Part shown: positions 21,856 to 38,923 of the stretch, in pieces
How the letters are laid out: every line of letters begins with the position of its first letter
How positions within the stretch are numbered: the first letter of the stretch is position 1
Origin: Bacteroidota bacterium
Lineage (GTDB): Bacteria > Bacteroidota > Bacteroidia > UBA8524
Reading direction: 5' to 3'
Assembly: GCA_008933805.1 (NCBI GenBank)
Contig: WBUH01000012.1
Coordinates: 62,001 to 126,000 of the forward strand
Length of the DNA: 64,000 nucleotides
Notes under the pieces: generated by a model
Seen by the model: the letters and a program-made list of their open reading frames with translations, nothing else
What the model was told of the DNA's origin: nothing
The model's database searches: none
Position numbers and translations under genes: made by a program

Positions 21856-21970
21856 GGTTTTGTTTTCTGTGTGCAAAAATATAAATTTAGACTCGTCTAA
21901 CAAATTATTTTGAAAAGACTTTTTAAATTGGGAGAGATACGGACTGAAGTCAGTATCTGTTAAAATTACA

Positions 21971-22004
21971 AAAGCCCTCAGGACTTAAGTCCTGAGGGCT
22001 TTTG
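21971..22004. terminator. Perfect 34-base palindrome / bidirectional terminator with GGACTTAAGTCC core
   Basis: Perfect inverted repeat, arms AAAAGCCCTCAGGACTT and its complement, flanked by A- and T-tracts. It lies between the 5' end of the cytochrome operon and the 3' fragment of the M20 gene and would terminate minus-strand transcripts arriving from the M20/nuclease region. Its 14-base core AGGACTTAAGTCCT recurs in the palindrome at 25154-25185. Confidence 0.85.
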
Positions 22005-22028
22005 TTTGCGTAAGATTGTATAAAAATA

Positions 22029-22096
22029 TTAGTTGTTAGTCAATTCTTTCACAGCCATCCAAGTCATTAAGCCTACGCCAAGTTCAAGGGCGGTTT
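22029..22096 (-). pseudogene. Displaced original 3' end of the M20 hydrolase gene
   Basis: Read on the minus strand this fragment encodes the M20 C-terminus TALELGVGLMTWMAVKELTNN and a stop codon at 22029-22031. The first 44 bases (22053-22096) are identical to the intact gene's end at 23871-23914; the last eight codons then diverge (AVKELTNN versus ALRELL). The simplest reading is that this is the ancestral 3' end, separated from its gene by insertion of the 1.8-kb nuclease segment, which brought a replacement tail. Confidence 0.85.
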
Positions 22097-22133
22097 GTTA
22101 TGCCTAAAGGGTACTTTGTAATTATTGTCTTTA

Positions 22134-22466
22134 TTAAACCTGCTCTATAATTGAAGTCCCTAAATCCCTAAACATTTTTGGGGGGCTATTAATTGCGTGT
22201 TTCATGCTTACGTAAGATGGAAACGATAGTAGTTTGTCAATAACTGCTTCCTTAGTTGTGACTTTGATAGACAAATCTGTGTAAGAATGGTATTCATCTA
22301 TTAACTTGTGAAGTTTAAGTTTACCGTCTTTAAAATAGTCTTGATAAAGTATCAAAGTGTCAATATCAATAACAGTTATGGGTCTGATATTTTTTTTGTC
22401 AACCTTCTTAATTTTTTCTAGTTCTTCTTTAAACCACTGATTTATAAGTTTATTAAACCCAAGCAA
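22134..22466 (-). CDS. C-terminal part of the PD-(D/E)XK nuclease-like protein, out of frame
   Basis: This 110-codon frame begins with a TTG inside the upstream gene and continues its sense in another frame: LGFNKLINQWFKEELEKIKK joins naturally to the upstream FNCLG. Adding one T to the TTT at 22455-22457 (plus-strand AAA) fuses the two into a 567-residue protein. The region is helical and charged, with DIDTLILYQDYFKDGKLKLH and ending GTSIIEQV. It is therefore unlikely to be an independent gene; it is the tail of a frameshifted or miscalled one. It ends 37 bases from the left direct repeat. Confidence 0.65.
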   Translation of the reverse strand: MLGFNKLINQWFKEELEKIKKVDKKNIRPITVIDIDTLILYQDYFKDGKLKLHKLIDEYHSYTDLSIKVTTKEAVIDKLLSFPSYVSMKHAINSPPKMFRDLGTSIIEQV

Positions 22467-23836
22467 TTAAACATCCTCTCATGAAGAACGAGTATTGGGT
22501 ATATTTTTGCTTTACTTCTATTGTATTCATTATCATACTTTAAAGTTTTATTTAAAGTATTATGTATATTATCTGTAAGTTGAATAATTGCTTTTCTTCG
22601 GCCTCTTTCGTTTAAAAGCAATTTTTTCTGTAATTCACTTTTAATAGCTTCATAGTCGTATGAATGTTTTATCTCAGCACTGATAAGAATATCTTTCGAT
22701 TCAAAAATGAAGATATTATCCTCATTTCTTGAATAAAAATCAGGCTCTCCATCAATATTATATCGTTGTTTAATTTCTTCACCACTTAACTTCTTATAGT
22801 TATTTGGAAGTAAACTTTTGAGAATTTTATAAAAAAGTTCTTTTTCAGAAAAGAAATCACAATAAAAACTCCTGAAATCTTTGGTATGTTTTAATGTTTT
22901 ATCTTCTTCCCAAACTTTAAAAAATAGTCCTTTATGAATCTGCTCAATAGCGAATAGCGGATAAGTAATGCTATATGTAAAATCTTCTAACATTCTATAA
23001 AATGGCTTACTTCTTAGTTCGATAAAATCTTTTTCAGGATTTGATAATTTAGGAAACGTATTTACGAAACTATCTAAGAAATCACAAAACCAATCTCTAT
23101 TATTTCTCTCATTAGAGATTTGAATTGTAGTCCTGCCTTCTTGACGCCCTTCATTTAAAACAACCCATGTAAATGAAATAAGTTCTCTAAGAAGGTTTTT
23201 CCAATCATAGGCATTAAGTTTATTAATAAAGCTTTCCAATAATACTGGTTTTTCCTTTTCTAGAAACTCAAAGAATAGAACAGATTTTATTACTTGGCAA
23301 ATGTTAACGTTATGTAGATTGTAATTTATAAATTCATCTTTGGCTATGTTTGGAGTTAAGAAAACAGCGATTAGCTTTTCGTCTCCAGCAAGATATTCAT
23401 ACTTGTTCTTATGGCTTAGTTCCTTTTTATCGATTGTTTCGTTAATAAGTGTATACGCTTTGAAAATGTTTTGCTCAAGCTCAATATTTGTTATTGAATC
23501 AACTACTTCGTTTTGATTGTAACAATATTCATAAAGCTTTAAACTTGCTAATGGGTTGACTATTTTAAATTGCTTGTTTAGGCGTTTTTCTTTTTCTTTT
23601 ATCTTCTGACAAATTTGGTCAACAAATTCAGCATTTTCTTTACTACAATACCATGATAAGAAGTCATAGATGTTTTCTCTATTTGTTGGTTTGAATCCTA
23701 AGAAGTGTTCAGCAGCACTTAATAAAGTTGTTCGGCTAATACCACTTAGATAGGTATCTATCTTATCAGGAGGTGTATCAAAGACATCACTGTACCCTAA
23801 TAACAAAACTTGTGTAGAATAATTAGTGTGTGGCAA
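22442..23836 (-). CDS. Putative PD-(D/E)XK nuclease, cargo of the inserted segment
   Basis: A 464-residue, Lys/Asn/Ile-rich protein of no family I can name. Near residues 364-390 it shows GEPDFYSRNEDNIFIFESKD, with Asp366 and Glu379-Ser-Lys381 in the spacing of the PD-(D/E)XK nuclease core, followed by the helix YEAIKSELQKKLL and the strand KAIIQL. The N-terminal 350 residues are helical and unrecognised. The start is TTG at 23836, 16 bases after the M20 stop, with no ATG available, so translation and transcription may depend on the host gene. The gene is visibly more AT-rich than its surroundings. Single nuclease genes at such sites are often anti-phage systems, but no defence family was recognised. 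Confidence 0.7.
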   Translation of the reverse strand: MPHTNYSTQVLLLGYSDVFDTPPDKIDTYLSGISRTTLLSAAEHFLGFKPTNRENIYDFLSWYCSKENAEFVDQICQKIKEKEKRLNKQFKIVNPLASLKLYEYCYNQNEVVDSITNIELEQNIFKAYTLINETIDKKELSHKNKYEYLAGDEKLIAVFLTPNIAKDEFINYNLHNVNICQVIKSVLFFEFLEKEKPVLLESFINKLNAYDWKNLLRELISFTWVVLNEGRQEGRTTIQISNERNNRDWFCDFLDSFVNTFPKLSNPEKDFIELRSKPFYRMLEDFTYSITYPLFAIEQIHKGLFFKVWEEDKTLKHTKDFRSFYCDFFSEKELFYKILKSLLPNNYKKLSGEEIKQRYNIDGEPDFYSRNEDNIFIFESKDILISAEIKHSYDYEAIKSELQKKLLLNERGRRKAIIQLTDNIHNTLNKTLKYDNEYNRSKAKIYPILVLHERMFNCLGLINL

Positions 23837-23852
23837 TTGATAACAATTTGGT

Positions 23853-25043
23853 TTATAATAGTTCTCTCAAAGCCATCCAAGTCATTAAGCCTACGCCAAG
23901 TTCAAGGGCGGTTTCGTCAACATCAAAAGTAGGGGTGTGTACCGATGAAGTAATCCCTTTTGCTTTATTGCCCGTACCCAAGCGGTAAAAACAACTGGGC
24001 ACTACTTGACTGTAATAAGCAAAATCTTCCGACGCCATCCAAATATCCAAATCCACAATGTTTTCTTTGCCTACAAATTCTTCGGCATAGCTGCGGGCTG
24101 CGGCAGTAAGGGCCTCGTCGTTCCTCAAAAACGGATACCCTTTGTGTATATCAAACACACAGCTTCCGCCCATACTTTCGGCAATACCTTCGGCCATTTT
24201 CACCATACGGCGATGGGCTTCGGCACGCCATTCCTCGTTCAGTGCGCGGAAAGTGCCCTCTATTTTTACCTCGTTGGGGATAATATTAGTAGCTCCGTTG
24301 GCTATCACCTTGCCAAAACTCAACACACAAGGGTCAAGCGGGCTGCTGTTGCGGCTGATAATTTGTTGCAAAGCCACAATAATATGGCTGGCAATCAGCA
24401 CAGGGTCTATATTTTGTTGGGGTTGCGCACCGTGTCCGCCTTTGCCTTTTACGGTTACATACAATTCATCGGCACTGGCCATGTACAACCCGCTACGGAA
24501 ACCGATTTTTCCGGCTTCAATTTGGGGCATTACGTGCTGGCCAATCATCTTTTGCACTTTGGGAGCTTCAAGCACACCTTCTTTTATCAGTAACGATGCA
24601 CCGCCGGGTATTTTTTCCTCGCCGGGCTGAAACACCAGCTTTATTGTACCTTCCAGTTGGTCTTTCAGTTGGTTTAATATACGGGCTGTACCCAATAGCG
24701 ATGAGGTGTGCACATCGTGTCCGCAGGCGTGCATTACCCCTTCGTTTTGCGATTTGTAAGGGACATCGTTGGCTTCAACAATGGGCAAGGCATCCATATC
24801 GCCGCGCAAGGCAATGGTTTTGCTTTGCGGGTTACGCCCTTCAATAATCGCTATCACACCTGTTTCAGCCTTACGCTCGAAGCGGGTAATGCCGTACTCG
24901 GTCAGTTTAGCCTCCACAAACTTGGCGGTTTCGTATTCTTGGTACGAAAGCTCTGGGTGGCTGTGCAAATGGCGACGGTTGCCTATATTGTCGGAGCTAT
25001 ACTTGGCTGCTAACTCTTTTATTTGTGCCTTTAGTTGTTCCAT
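23853..25043 (-). CDS. M20-family amidohydrolase (N-acyl amino-acid hydrolase type)
   Basis: A 396-residue metal-dependent hydrolase of the M20D group (hippuricase/N-acetyl-diaminopimelate deacetylase-like). Motifs are ALRGDMDALPI, HACGHDVHT, the catalytic/metal segment VFQPGEEKIPGGA, IGQHVMPQ, and late DIWMASEDFAYYSQ and SSVHTPTFDVDE. A lid/dimerisation domain lies between about residues 180 and 290. The ATG at 25041-25043 is chosen; the upstream TTG (25052) adds only three residues. Its last 15 codons are also duplicated at 22053-22096; the present 3' end (ALRELL) appears to have been supplied by the inserted element. Confidence 0.93.
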   Translation of the reverse strand: MEQLKAQIKELAAKYSSDNIGNRRHLHSHPELSYQEYETAKFVEAKLTEYGITRFERKAETGVIAIIEGRNPQSKTIALRGDMDALPIVEANDVPYKSQNEGVMHACGHDVHTSSLLGTARILNQLKDQLEGTIKLVFQPGEEKIPGGASLLIKEGVLEAPKVQKMIGQHVMPQIEAGKIGFRSGLYMASADELYVTVKGKGGHGAQPQQNIDPVLIASHIIVALQQIISRNSSPLDPCVLSFGKVIANGATNIIPNEVKIEGTFRALNEEWRAEAHRRMVKMAEGIAESMGGSCVFDIHKGYPFLRNDEALTAAARSYAEEFVGKENIVDLDIWMASEDFAYYSQVVPSCFYRLGTGNKAKGITSSVHTPTFDVDETALELGVGLMTWMALRELL

Positions 25044-25119
25044 GATGGGCAAAGGTAAAGAATTGCAGAATTGTTGATTTATTGATTTTAGGATTTGTTG
25101 AGATGATGGTCTTTTGCTA

Positions 25120-25139: not shown

Positions 25140-25153
25140 CTTTTGTAATTACC

Positions 25154-25185
25154 TTTTTGCGAAGGACTTAAGTCCTTCGCAAAAA
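25154..25185. repeat. Perfect 32-base palindrome with GGACTTAAGTCC core
   Basis: Perfect inverted repeat with 16-base arms TTTTTGCGAAGGACTT and its complement. It shares the core AGGACTTAAGTCCT with the palindrome at 21971-22004, so the M20/nuclease region is bracketed by two related palindromes. Shape fits a bidirectional terminator, but both neighbouring genes diverge from this gap, so a REP-like repeat or attenuator is also possible. Confidence 0.7.
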
Positions 25186-25299
25186 GATAATTGGAATAAA
25201 GAGGGGTTTCAACGCCTTAGTCTTTGTGATTGCAATAAGAGGTAGTGCCTCAATATGATTGGTGAAAGAACGCTATCGGTATCTATTTAAAAACTGCGC

Positions 25300-25307
25300 T
25301 ACATTTG
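25300..25307 (+). promoter_or_regulatory. -7 promoter element (TACATTTG)
   Basis: TACATTTG ends five bases before the ATG at 25313. This supports that ATG as the true start and predicts a leaderless transcript; the in-frame TTG at 25259 lies upstream of the promoter. Confidence 0.6.
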
Positions 25308-25312
25308 CAATA

Positions 25313-26071
25313 ATGAGTTTAAAGATTGAAGTTCTAAATGCACTTGACAATTCACATGATGGGGGGTATAAGCGTTTTGTGTGGTTTAATGATATATACT
25401 CTTATCTAATTGAAAGCAGATTAAATGTATTCAGAGGGAAAGAAGAGACTTGGGCAATAGCCATAGAAAGAGTTGGTTTTAATCCAAGAGCAGGAAATAT
25501 CTTTTTGTCGATAACGTACTTTGGTAATTGTTTAACCAATTTAGAAAGGTATAATAATTATGTATGTAATGATTATCAAATAGGTTTACTAAACGATGAT
25601 GAAGTTGAGGAAACCATTGATGTTGATGTTTTAAAAGAAGATGCAAAACATTGGACAATAAGAGGACAGAAAATCCCGCTGGTTTACACTAAAGCTGATT
25701 ATAAAGATGCAGGTGTAAATATTAGCGATTATGATGCAAACGCAATAGGTGTAGAGGCTGTAGCAAGGGTGATAGCGTATAAACACAAAACTATTTTTTG
25801 TGCTACCGACCAAGAGTTGTATAAATCAATCCCAAGTAACTTAGATAAGATATTAGTATTAGATGAATGGTATCACATAGATTACCAACGTTTTTCAAAT
25901 GAATTTCATTCTGAATCAATGAATGGAGATGAAGATAATGACAAACCGAGCAGTTATGAAACATGGCAAATGATAGCGGACGTTATTACAAGCGGTAATG
26001 CAAACTTATATAAACCGACATTGAAACCAAATACCCATTGGAGCAACTATCCTGAGTCGGGAACTTTTTAA
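25313..26071 (+). CDS. Hypothetical cytoplasmic protein (uncharacterised Bacteroidota family)
   Basis: A 252-residue soluble protein with no signal peptide or membrane helix. Notable segments are ETWAIAIERVGFNPRAGNIF, ITYFGNCLTNLERYNNYV, a central IRGQKIPLVYTKADYKDAGV, and TIFCATDQELYKSIPSNLDK then ILVLDEWYHIDY. It resembles an uncharacterised family seen next to toxin/immunity and defence genes (my recollection is DUF7003, not verified). The ATG at 25313 is chosen because a -7 element ends five bases before it. It is AT-rich and stands alone next to the M20/nuclease insertion, so it may be accessory. Function unknown. Confidence 0.7.
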   Translation: MSLKIEVLNALDNSHDGGYKRFVWFNDIYSYLIESRLNVFRGKEETWAIAIERVGFNPRAGNIFLSITYFGNCLTNLERYNNYVCNDYQIGLLNDDEVEETIDVDVLKEDAKHWTIRGQKIPLVYTKADYKDAGVNISDYDANAIGVEAVARVIAYKHKTIFCATDQELYKSIPSNLDKILVLDEWYHIDYQRFSNEFHSESMNGDEDNDKPSSYETWQMIADVITSGNANLYKPTLKPNTHWSNYPESGTF

Positions 26072-37960: not shown

Positions 37961-38923
37961 TTACGACTTCTTAGGGCGTCCGGGACCGCGCTTAGCTTCA
38001 GCAGTAACCGGTTGAGCTGTAGTCTTAGCCGGACGGCCTGCACCACGTTTACCTGCGGCAGGAGCTGCAGTTTTAGCAGGGCGGCCGGGAGAACGTTTAA
38101 CCGTGGCAGTTACCTCGGGTTGTGATTTACGAGGACGACCGGGACCACGTTTTTCGCCTTGAGTTTCTGTTACAGGGCTTTTACGAGGACGACCGGGTGT
38201 ACGCTTTAACTCGCTGGTAGATTCCAACGGGCTTTTACGAGGACGGCCGGGTGTACGTTTTAGGGTTGTTTCTTCAAGAGGTTTAATACGGGGGCGTCCG
38301 GGGGTACGTTTTGCAACAGCAGTAGCGGCTGCATTTTTACGGGGACGACCTGGACCGCGTTTTTCGCCTGAAGCTGCGCTTACAGGTGTTTTACGAGGAC
38401 GGCCGGGGCCACGTTTTTCGCCGGTTTCATTGGCTTCAACGGGATTTTTACGAGGACGGCCGGGACCGCGACGTTCACCTGATGTAGCACTTACCGGATT
38501 TTTACGAGGACGACCTGGACCACGTTTCATTGCACCTTCTGAATCCGAATCAAATCCGCTAATTGCCGATGATTTACGGGGGCGGCCACGGCCGCGTTTT
38601 TCAGAAAGTACAGGAGCTGAGCCACCTAAGCGGCTAAGTACATTTTCAACCAATTTAGATAGATACTCAAGTTTATTGTATACTGAGTACATATTGGTGG
38701 TATCATCAAGATACATCATGCCCTCGCCAAAGTGTAACCAGATTTTATTTATTCCGAATTTCTCTTCTAAAATCTGAGTCACTTCTTGGCTGATGCTTTT
38801 TATTTGCCCTTCTTCCAGTTTATATACCGCAACCTGCGATATCCCCAACTCGCGGGCAAATTCATTTTGAGTAAGGCCGAGCTCTTTACGAACGGCCTTA
38901 AAACGCTCTGATGGTGTGTTCAT
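37961..38923 (-). CDS. XRE-type DNA-binding protein with twelve AT-hook motifs
   Basis: A 320-residue DNA-binding protein with two parts. Residues 5-62 form a Cro/C1-type helix-turn-helix (MNTPSERFKAVRKELGLTQN, FARELGISQVAVYKLEEGQI). A short middle region (65-105) leads to a basic tail of about 215 residues with twelve AT-hooks. Nine have the GRPRK core and the others are GRPRIK, GRPAK or GRPKK, spaced about 18-22 residues apart by Ser/Thr/Ala/Glu-rich linkers. Each hook binds the minor groove of AT-rich DNA, so the protein should combine a specific site with broad AT-tract binding, like a nucleoid-associated regulator. A perfect promoter lies at 38935-38965. Monocistronic, in AT-rich surroundings. 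Confidence 0.92.
   Translation of the reverse strand: MNTPSERFKAVRKELGLTQNEFARELGISQVAVYKLEEGQIKSISQEVTQILEEKFGINKIWLHFGEGMMYLDDTTNMYSVYNKLEYLSKLVENVLSRLGGSAPVLSEKRGRGRPRKSSAISGFDSDSEGAMKRGPGRPRKNPVSATSGERRGPGRPRKNPVEANETGEKRGPGRPRKTPVSAASGEKRGPGRPRKNAAATAVAKRTPGRPRIKPLEETTLKRTPGRPRKSPLESTSELKRTPGRPRKSPVTETQGEKRGPGRPRKSQPEVTATVKRSPGRPAKTAAPAAGKRGAGRPAKTTAQPVTAEAKRGPGRPKKS

Follow-up and report, generated by a model that had tools for sequence, protein, structure and literature searches.

A putative PD-(D/E)XK nuclease gene flanked by 44-bp direct repeats at the 3′ end of an M20 peptidase gene in a Bacteroidota genome

The M20 gene and its duplicated end

Within the 64-kb stretch of DNA that was analyzed (the window), an intact gene for an M20 peptidase is followed by an AT-rich segment, which is bordered on both sides by the same 44 bases from the end of this gene (Table 1). 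The features are all located on the minus strand, and "outer" accordingly refers to the low-coordinate side. An earlier note on this DNA had described a perfect 44-base direct repeat with copies about 1.8 kb apart, and this was confirmed, with an exact spacing of 1818. Together with its flanks the repeat comprises 53 nt, 51 of which are identical. No other exact repeat in the window reaches 20 nt; in simulated sequence the longest repeat measured 15–18 nt (20 Markov simulations). In the 4.29-Mb genome the 44-bp core occurs at two places only, both at the M20 locus. A cluster of imperfect direct repeats of 27–132 nt was also observed in the window, at 38122–38527.

The tails behind the two copies, read on the minus strand, are those given in the earlier note, i.e., ALRELL and a stop codon behind the inner copy and AVKELTNN and a stop codon behind the outer one. 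The tail after the outer copy resembles the tail of the M20 family, A[LV]K[EQ]LGN, and the strong hairpin which follows it fits the original terminator of the M20 gene. A perfect hairpin with the core AGGACTTAAGTCCT flanks the M20 unit on both sides (21968–22005 and 25147–25192) and is found elsewhere in the genome as well (stretches L182, L188, L193, L207, L210 and L212); it may be a terminator-like element or a dispersed palindromic repeat. A DUF7003 gene (25259–26071) is oriented divergently to the M20 gene.

The ALRELL tail, which according to the earlier note came with the insert, is not arbitrary: the insert-borne TTGAGAGAACTA and the native GTGAAAGAATTG agree at 8 of 12 positions, and only 0.6% of the insert positions reach such a score. 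As similarity to M20 ends sharply at the left edge of the outer copy, with nothing similar to the left of it, and a diverged M20 tail extends past the right edge of the inner copy, the insert probably supplied a variant M20 end. A block of 44 nt without any mismatch, followed by 4 mismatches in 12 nt, does not look like the uniform drift which would follow a simple duplication.

The insert has a length of 1.77 kb and a GC content of 29%, compared to 49% for the M20 gene and 41% for the window, and no recombinase or transposase is present in it. Its gene begins 16 bp from the M20 stop codon and ends 37 bp from the outer copy. The earlier description of an AT-rich segment with one nuclease-like gene is correct for the composition and for the number of genes, but the reading frame is split into open reading frames (ORFs) of 464 and 110 amino acids. 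As homologues are continuous across this point, both ORFs are to be regarded as one gene that is split by a frameshift, which would be due either to a one-base lesion in the copy of the window or to an error in sequencing. A programmed −1 frameshift at G GGT TTA is unlikely, as no supporting structure could be found (z −0.2) and the site is absent in the homologues.

Table 1. Features at the 3′ end of the M20 gene (positions in the window).
Feature	Position	Strand	Basis
Terminator-like hairpin after the native M20 end (−31.6 kcal/mol, z −8.6)	21968..22005	.	folding
Presumed native M20 3′ end (VKELTNN and stop), cut off from its gene	22029..22052	-	sequence
Outer 44-bp copy, abrupt start after the insert	22053..22096	-	repeat search, junction comparison
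Segment between the repeats, 29% GC	22097..23870	-	composition
C-terminal 110 amino acids of the putative nuclease, other frame, one-base frameshift near 22460	22134..22466	-	homologues open through this point
N-terminal 464 amino acids of the putative nuclease, putative TTG start, motif PDFY-x10-ESK	22442..23836	-	ORF, alignment of 6 homologues
Insert-borne substitute for the M20 3′ end (TTGAGAGAACTATTATAA)	23853..23870	-	sequence
Inner 44-bp copy (att-like), coding for TALELGVGLMTWMA	23871..23914	-	exact repeat search
M20 peptidase gene, 399 amino acids, intact, ending in the insert-borne ALRELL	23853..25052	-	Pfam PF01546, E 2e-42

The nuclease family and its neighborhoods

The residues P365, D366, E379 and K381 of the insert protein are invariant in six aligned homologues. 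An arrangement of the type PD...ESK is the signature of PD-(D/E)XK nucleases. Judged by its sequence, the insert protein appears to be a member of this superfamily, belonging to an unnamed family in which the catalytic motif is conserved. Neither Pfam, NCBIfam and PADLOC nor the PDB yielded a match to the nuclease, and a structure model from the single sequence (pLDDT 36) was too poor for a fold search. Homologues are mostly single proteins of about 580–600 amino acids with 26–35% identity from other Bacteroidia. They were found in 12 of 395 genomes of the class and in 14 of 395 genomes of the phylum, both counts including the genome of the window. They also occur on Hymenobacter plasmids, and the search of phages and viral contigs revealed no homologue.

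Several homologues cluster with defense genes, as judged by inspection. One adjoins a tyrosine integrase and DRT8 (L046), one lies behind Septu PtuA and an HNH gene (L047) and one is located beside an nSTAND3 protein (L044). AbiE and MmeI genes also occur among the neighbors of homologues. A further homologue, in genome G309, is a single-gene cassette in an integron-type array (L045), whose integrase passes the XerA/integron-integrase cut-off. In this array (L045 6521–16000, contig C23 of a member of the Bacteroidia) the integrase is followed by single-gene cassettes, one of which is the nuclease homologue; the cassettes are parted by two classes of attC-like repeats of about 125–145 nt, and the main class folds better than shuffled sequences (z −3.1 and −2.6). 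Outside of this integron no nuclease homologue was found to be flanked by repeats like those in the window.

The idea that the cargo could be an anti-phage nuclease gains support from the homologues beside defense genes, and the insert gene probably encodes such a nuclease. As the family has no match in Pfam, NCBIfam or PADLOC, is scattered over the Bacteroidia, adjoins known anti-phage systems and once forms an integron cassette, it appears reasonable to regard it as a new defense candidate. This family may be a more useful outcome of the analysis than the insertion.

Origin of the insertion

Among about 110 M20 loci from other genomes, all of them outside the genus and with the nearest M20 genes being 69–72% identical, there was none with the nuclease gene near M20, and the tail was not repeated in this manner at any of the 80 loci which were checked for it. 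As neither the nuclease nor a repeated tail occurs at these loci, the gene appears to have been acquired horizontally. A nuclease that is vertically conserved behind M20, or two tail copies in genomes without the nuclease, either of which would speak against an insertion, were not seen in this comparison; vertical conservation is ruled out by the roughly 110 loci, and the M20 3′ end does not appear to be a recurrent hot spot, as no other repeated tails were found. Taken together, the AT-rich insert, the hairpin, the abrupt left junction, the variant tail and the absence from the other loci bear out the earlier claim of an insertion at a gene's 3′ end, and an insertion by which the end of the M20 gene was restored is well supported. 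It would illustrate how a single defense-type gene, positioned after a housekeeping gene that stays intact, can use the transcription unit of the latter.

Elements of tyrosine recombinases integrate at the 3′ ends of genes and leave a restored gene end and identical cores behind. Direct repeats are present at both ends of the insert, one of them restoring the end of the target gene, and as this is the way in which such elements integrate, these repeats most likely represent attL and attR. The integrative element to which they would belong, either small or shrunken, would have lost its recombinase or received it in trans, i.e., it would be a CIME-like remnant, a reading which we favor with about even confidence. 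Reciprocal recombination between an incoming DNA circle and the final 44 bases of the M20 gene would have left 44 bp on both sides and replaced the last codons by the variant of the insert. The site would previously have read GAAACCGCC up to the 44 bp and then directly GTGAAAGAATTGACTAACAACTAA, without any nuclease gene. The promoterless nuclease gene would be read from the M20 transcript, and transcription would stop at the former terminator of M20.

The recombinase may have been lost or may have been supplied in trans, and the genome encodes 15 tyrosine recombinases which could act in this manner. Twelve stretches of the genome with recombinase genes were examined, and the 44-bp core is absent from all of them. 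A remnant of this type would not have to share a genome with its parent element. Six related tyrosine recombinases of about 410 amino acids (L167–L172, on contigs C11, C27, C19, C4, C12 and C13 of the same genome, G000) sit in mutually similar islands, which suggests a family of integrative elements; att repeats were not found within 20 kb of them. Against a remnant with att sites it has to be said that a larger element would have to have decayed in such a way that everything was lost except for a gene nearly touching both ends.

The main rival to the att-remnant reading is a RecA-dependent single crossover within the 44 identical bases, by which a related donor's M20 3′ end together with the nuclease gene, circularized or not, would have been integrated; in a variant of this scenario one end was joined by homology and the other illegitimately. 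We consider this possible, albeit doubtful. The variant tail would then be the donor's M20 end, and both this M20-like tail and the abrupt left junction would be accounted for without any recombinase. A ComEC gene is present in the genome, and there is a precedent in E. coli, where circularized incoming DNA integrates by a single crossover and leaves 109–950 bp of duplicated homology (PMC3240628). However, the scenario needs a nuclease gene that was already located behind M20 in the donor, while no M20 gene was present near any of the nuclease homologues found, and 44 bp are short for RecA between diverged strains.

The diverged M20 tail on the insert side is predicted by site-specific as well as by homologous integration, but not by a simple target duplication. 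This bears on a further scenario, in which the nuclease gene was inserted by an unspecified route together with a long duplication of its target, as is known for restriction-modification genes in Helicobacter; PMC3031569 and PMC1643837 credit the first description to Nobusato et al. (2000). The nuclease gene, the absence of a recombinase and the long duplication match this pattern as far as the citing papers outline it. A plain duplication predicts no M20 similarity past the identical block, yet the insert-side tail agrees with the native one at the 8 of 12 positions mentioned above, although such a short stretch allows only a weak exclusion. As a methyltransferase partner is absent as well and such repeats are missing from the rest of the nuclease family, this origin appears unlikely.

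The earlier note had further suggested a minimal mobile architecture without a recombinase of its own. This claim is not supported, as no second unit of this type was found in about 1.0 Mb of the same genome (some of the examined stretches overlapping), the homologues outside the integron are not bracketed by repeats and the cargo carries a frameshift, a finding as compatible with a decayed remnant as with a mobile unit. Candidates for second instances in L193 and L209 proved to consist of dispersed non-coding repeats and tandem paralogues; in L193 (2429–4621) dispersed GC-rich non-coding repeats surround small AT-rich ORFs. A defense "satellite" of 1.8 kb, which consists of a single gene, relies on a recombinase in trans and integrates at gene 3′ ends with its own replacement end, is very unlikely. 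An active minimal single-gene element which is mobilized in trans and uses gene 3′ ends is likewise very unlikely: its compact layout with margins of 16 and 37 bp and the integron cassette of G309, according to which the gene can travel alone, are set against the single instance, the frameshifted cargo and the lack of an att site shared with the resident recombinases examined. The insertion rather looks like a remnant or a by-product of ordinary recombination than like a new kind of mobile element.

That a 44-bp overlap wrongly joined contigs of two strains is highly improbable, as both junctions are biologically sensible (a restored gene end and a terminator) and both sides run on into intact genes, even though the genome is a draft of 40 contigs and the one-base frameshift lies inside the segment. 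Target duplications made by transposases are far shorter than the 44-bp repeat, and as a transposase is absent, too, a transposon can be rejected. Insertion as an integron cassette was rejected as well, as the repeats in the window fold no better than shuffled sequences (z 0.6 and −1.1), i.e., lack an attC fold, and as the genome contains no recombinase above the XerA/integron-integrase cut-off.

Comparison with known systems

With integron cassettes the insert shares a single promoterless gene lying in the direction of transcription of its host gene, and the G309 homologue is itself a cassette; unlike a cassette, however, the insert has no attC fold, and its 44-bp repeat is sequence of the target gene. 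The insertions of restriction-modification genes in Helicobacter pylori, as outlined in the papers citing them, resemble the locus in the nuclease gene, the long direct duplication and the absent recombinase, whereas the insert in the window brings a variant target end and no methyltransferase. Single-crossover or homology-facilitated integration likewise leaves duplicated homology around an insert, which here amounts to 44 bp only. A CIME (cis-mobilizable element) is a decayed integrative element which retains attL and attR without a recombinase (PMC5704250). The insert differs from it in comprising one gene, with no cognate ICE or IME found in the genome, but resembles it in the absence of a recombinase, in the direct repeats at a gene's 3′ end and in the restoration of this gene end.
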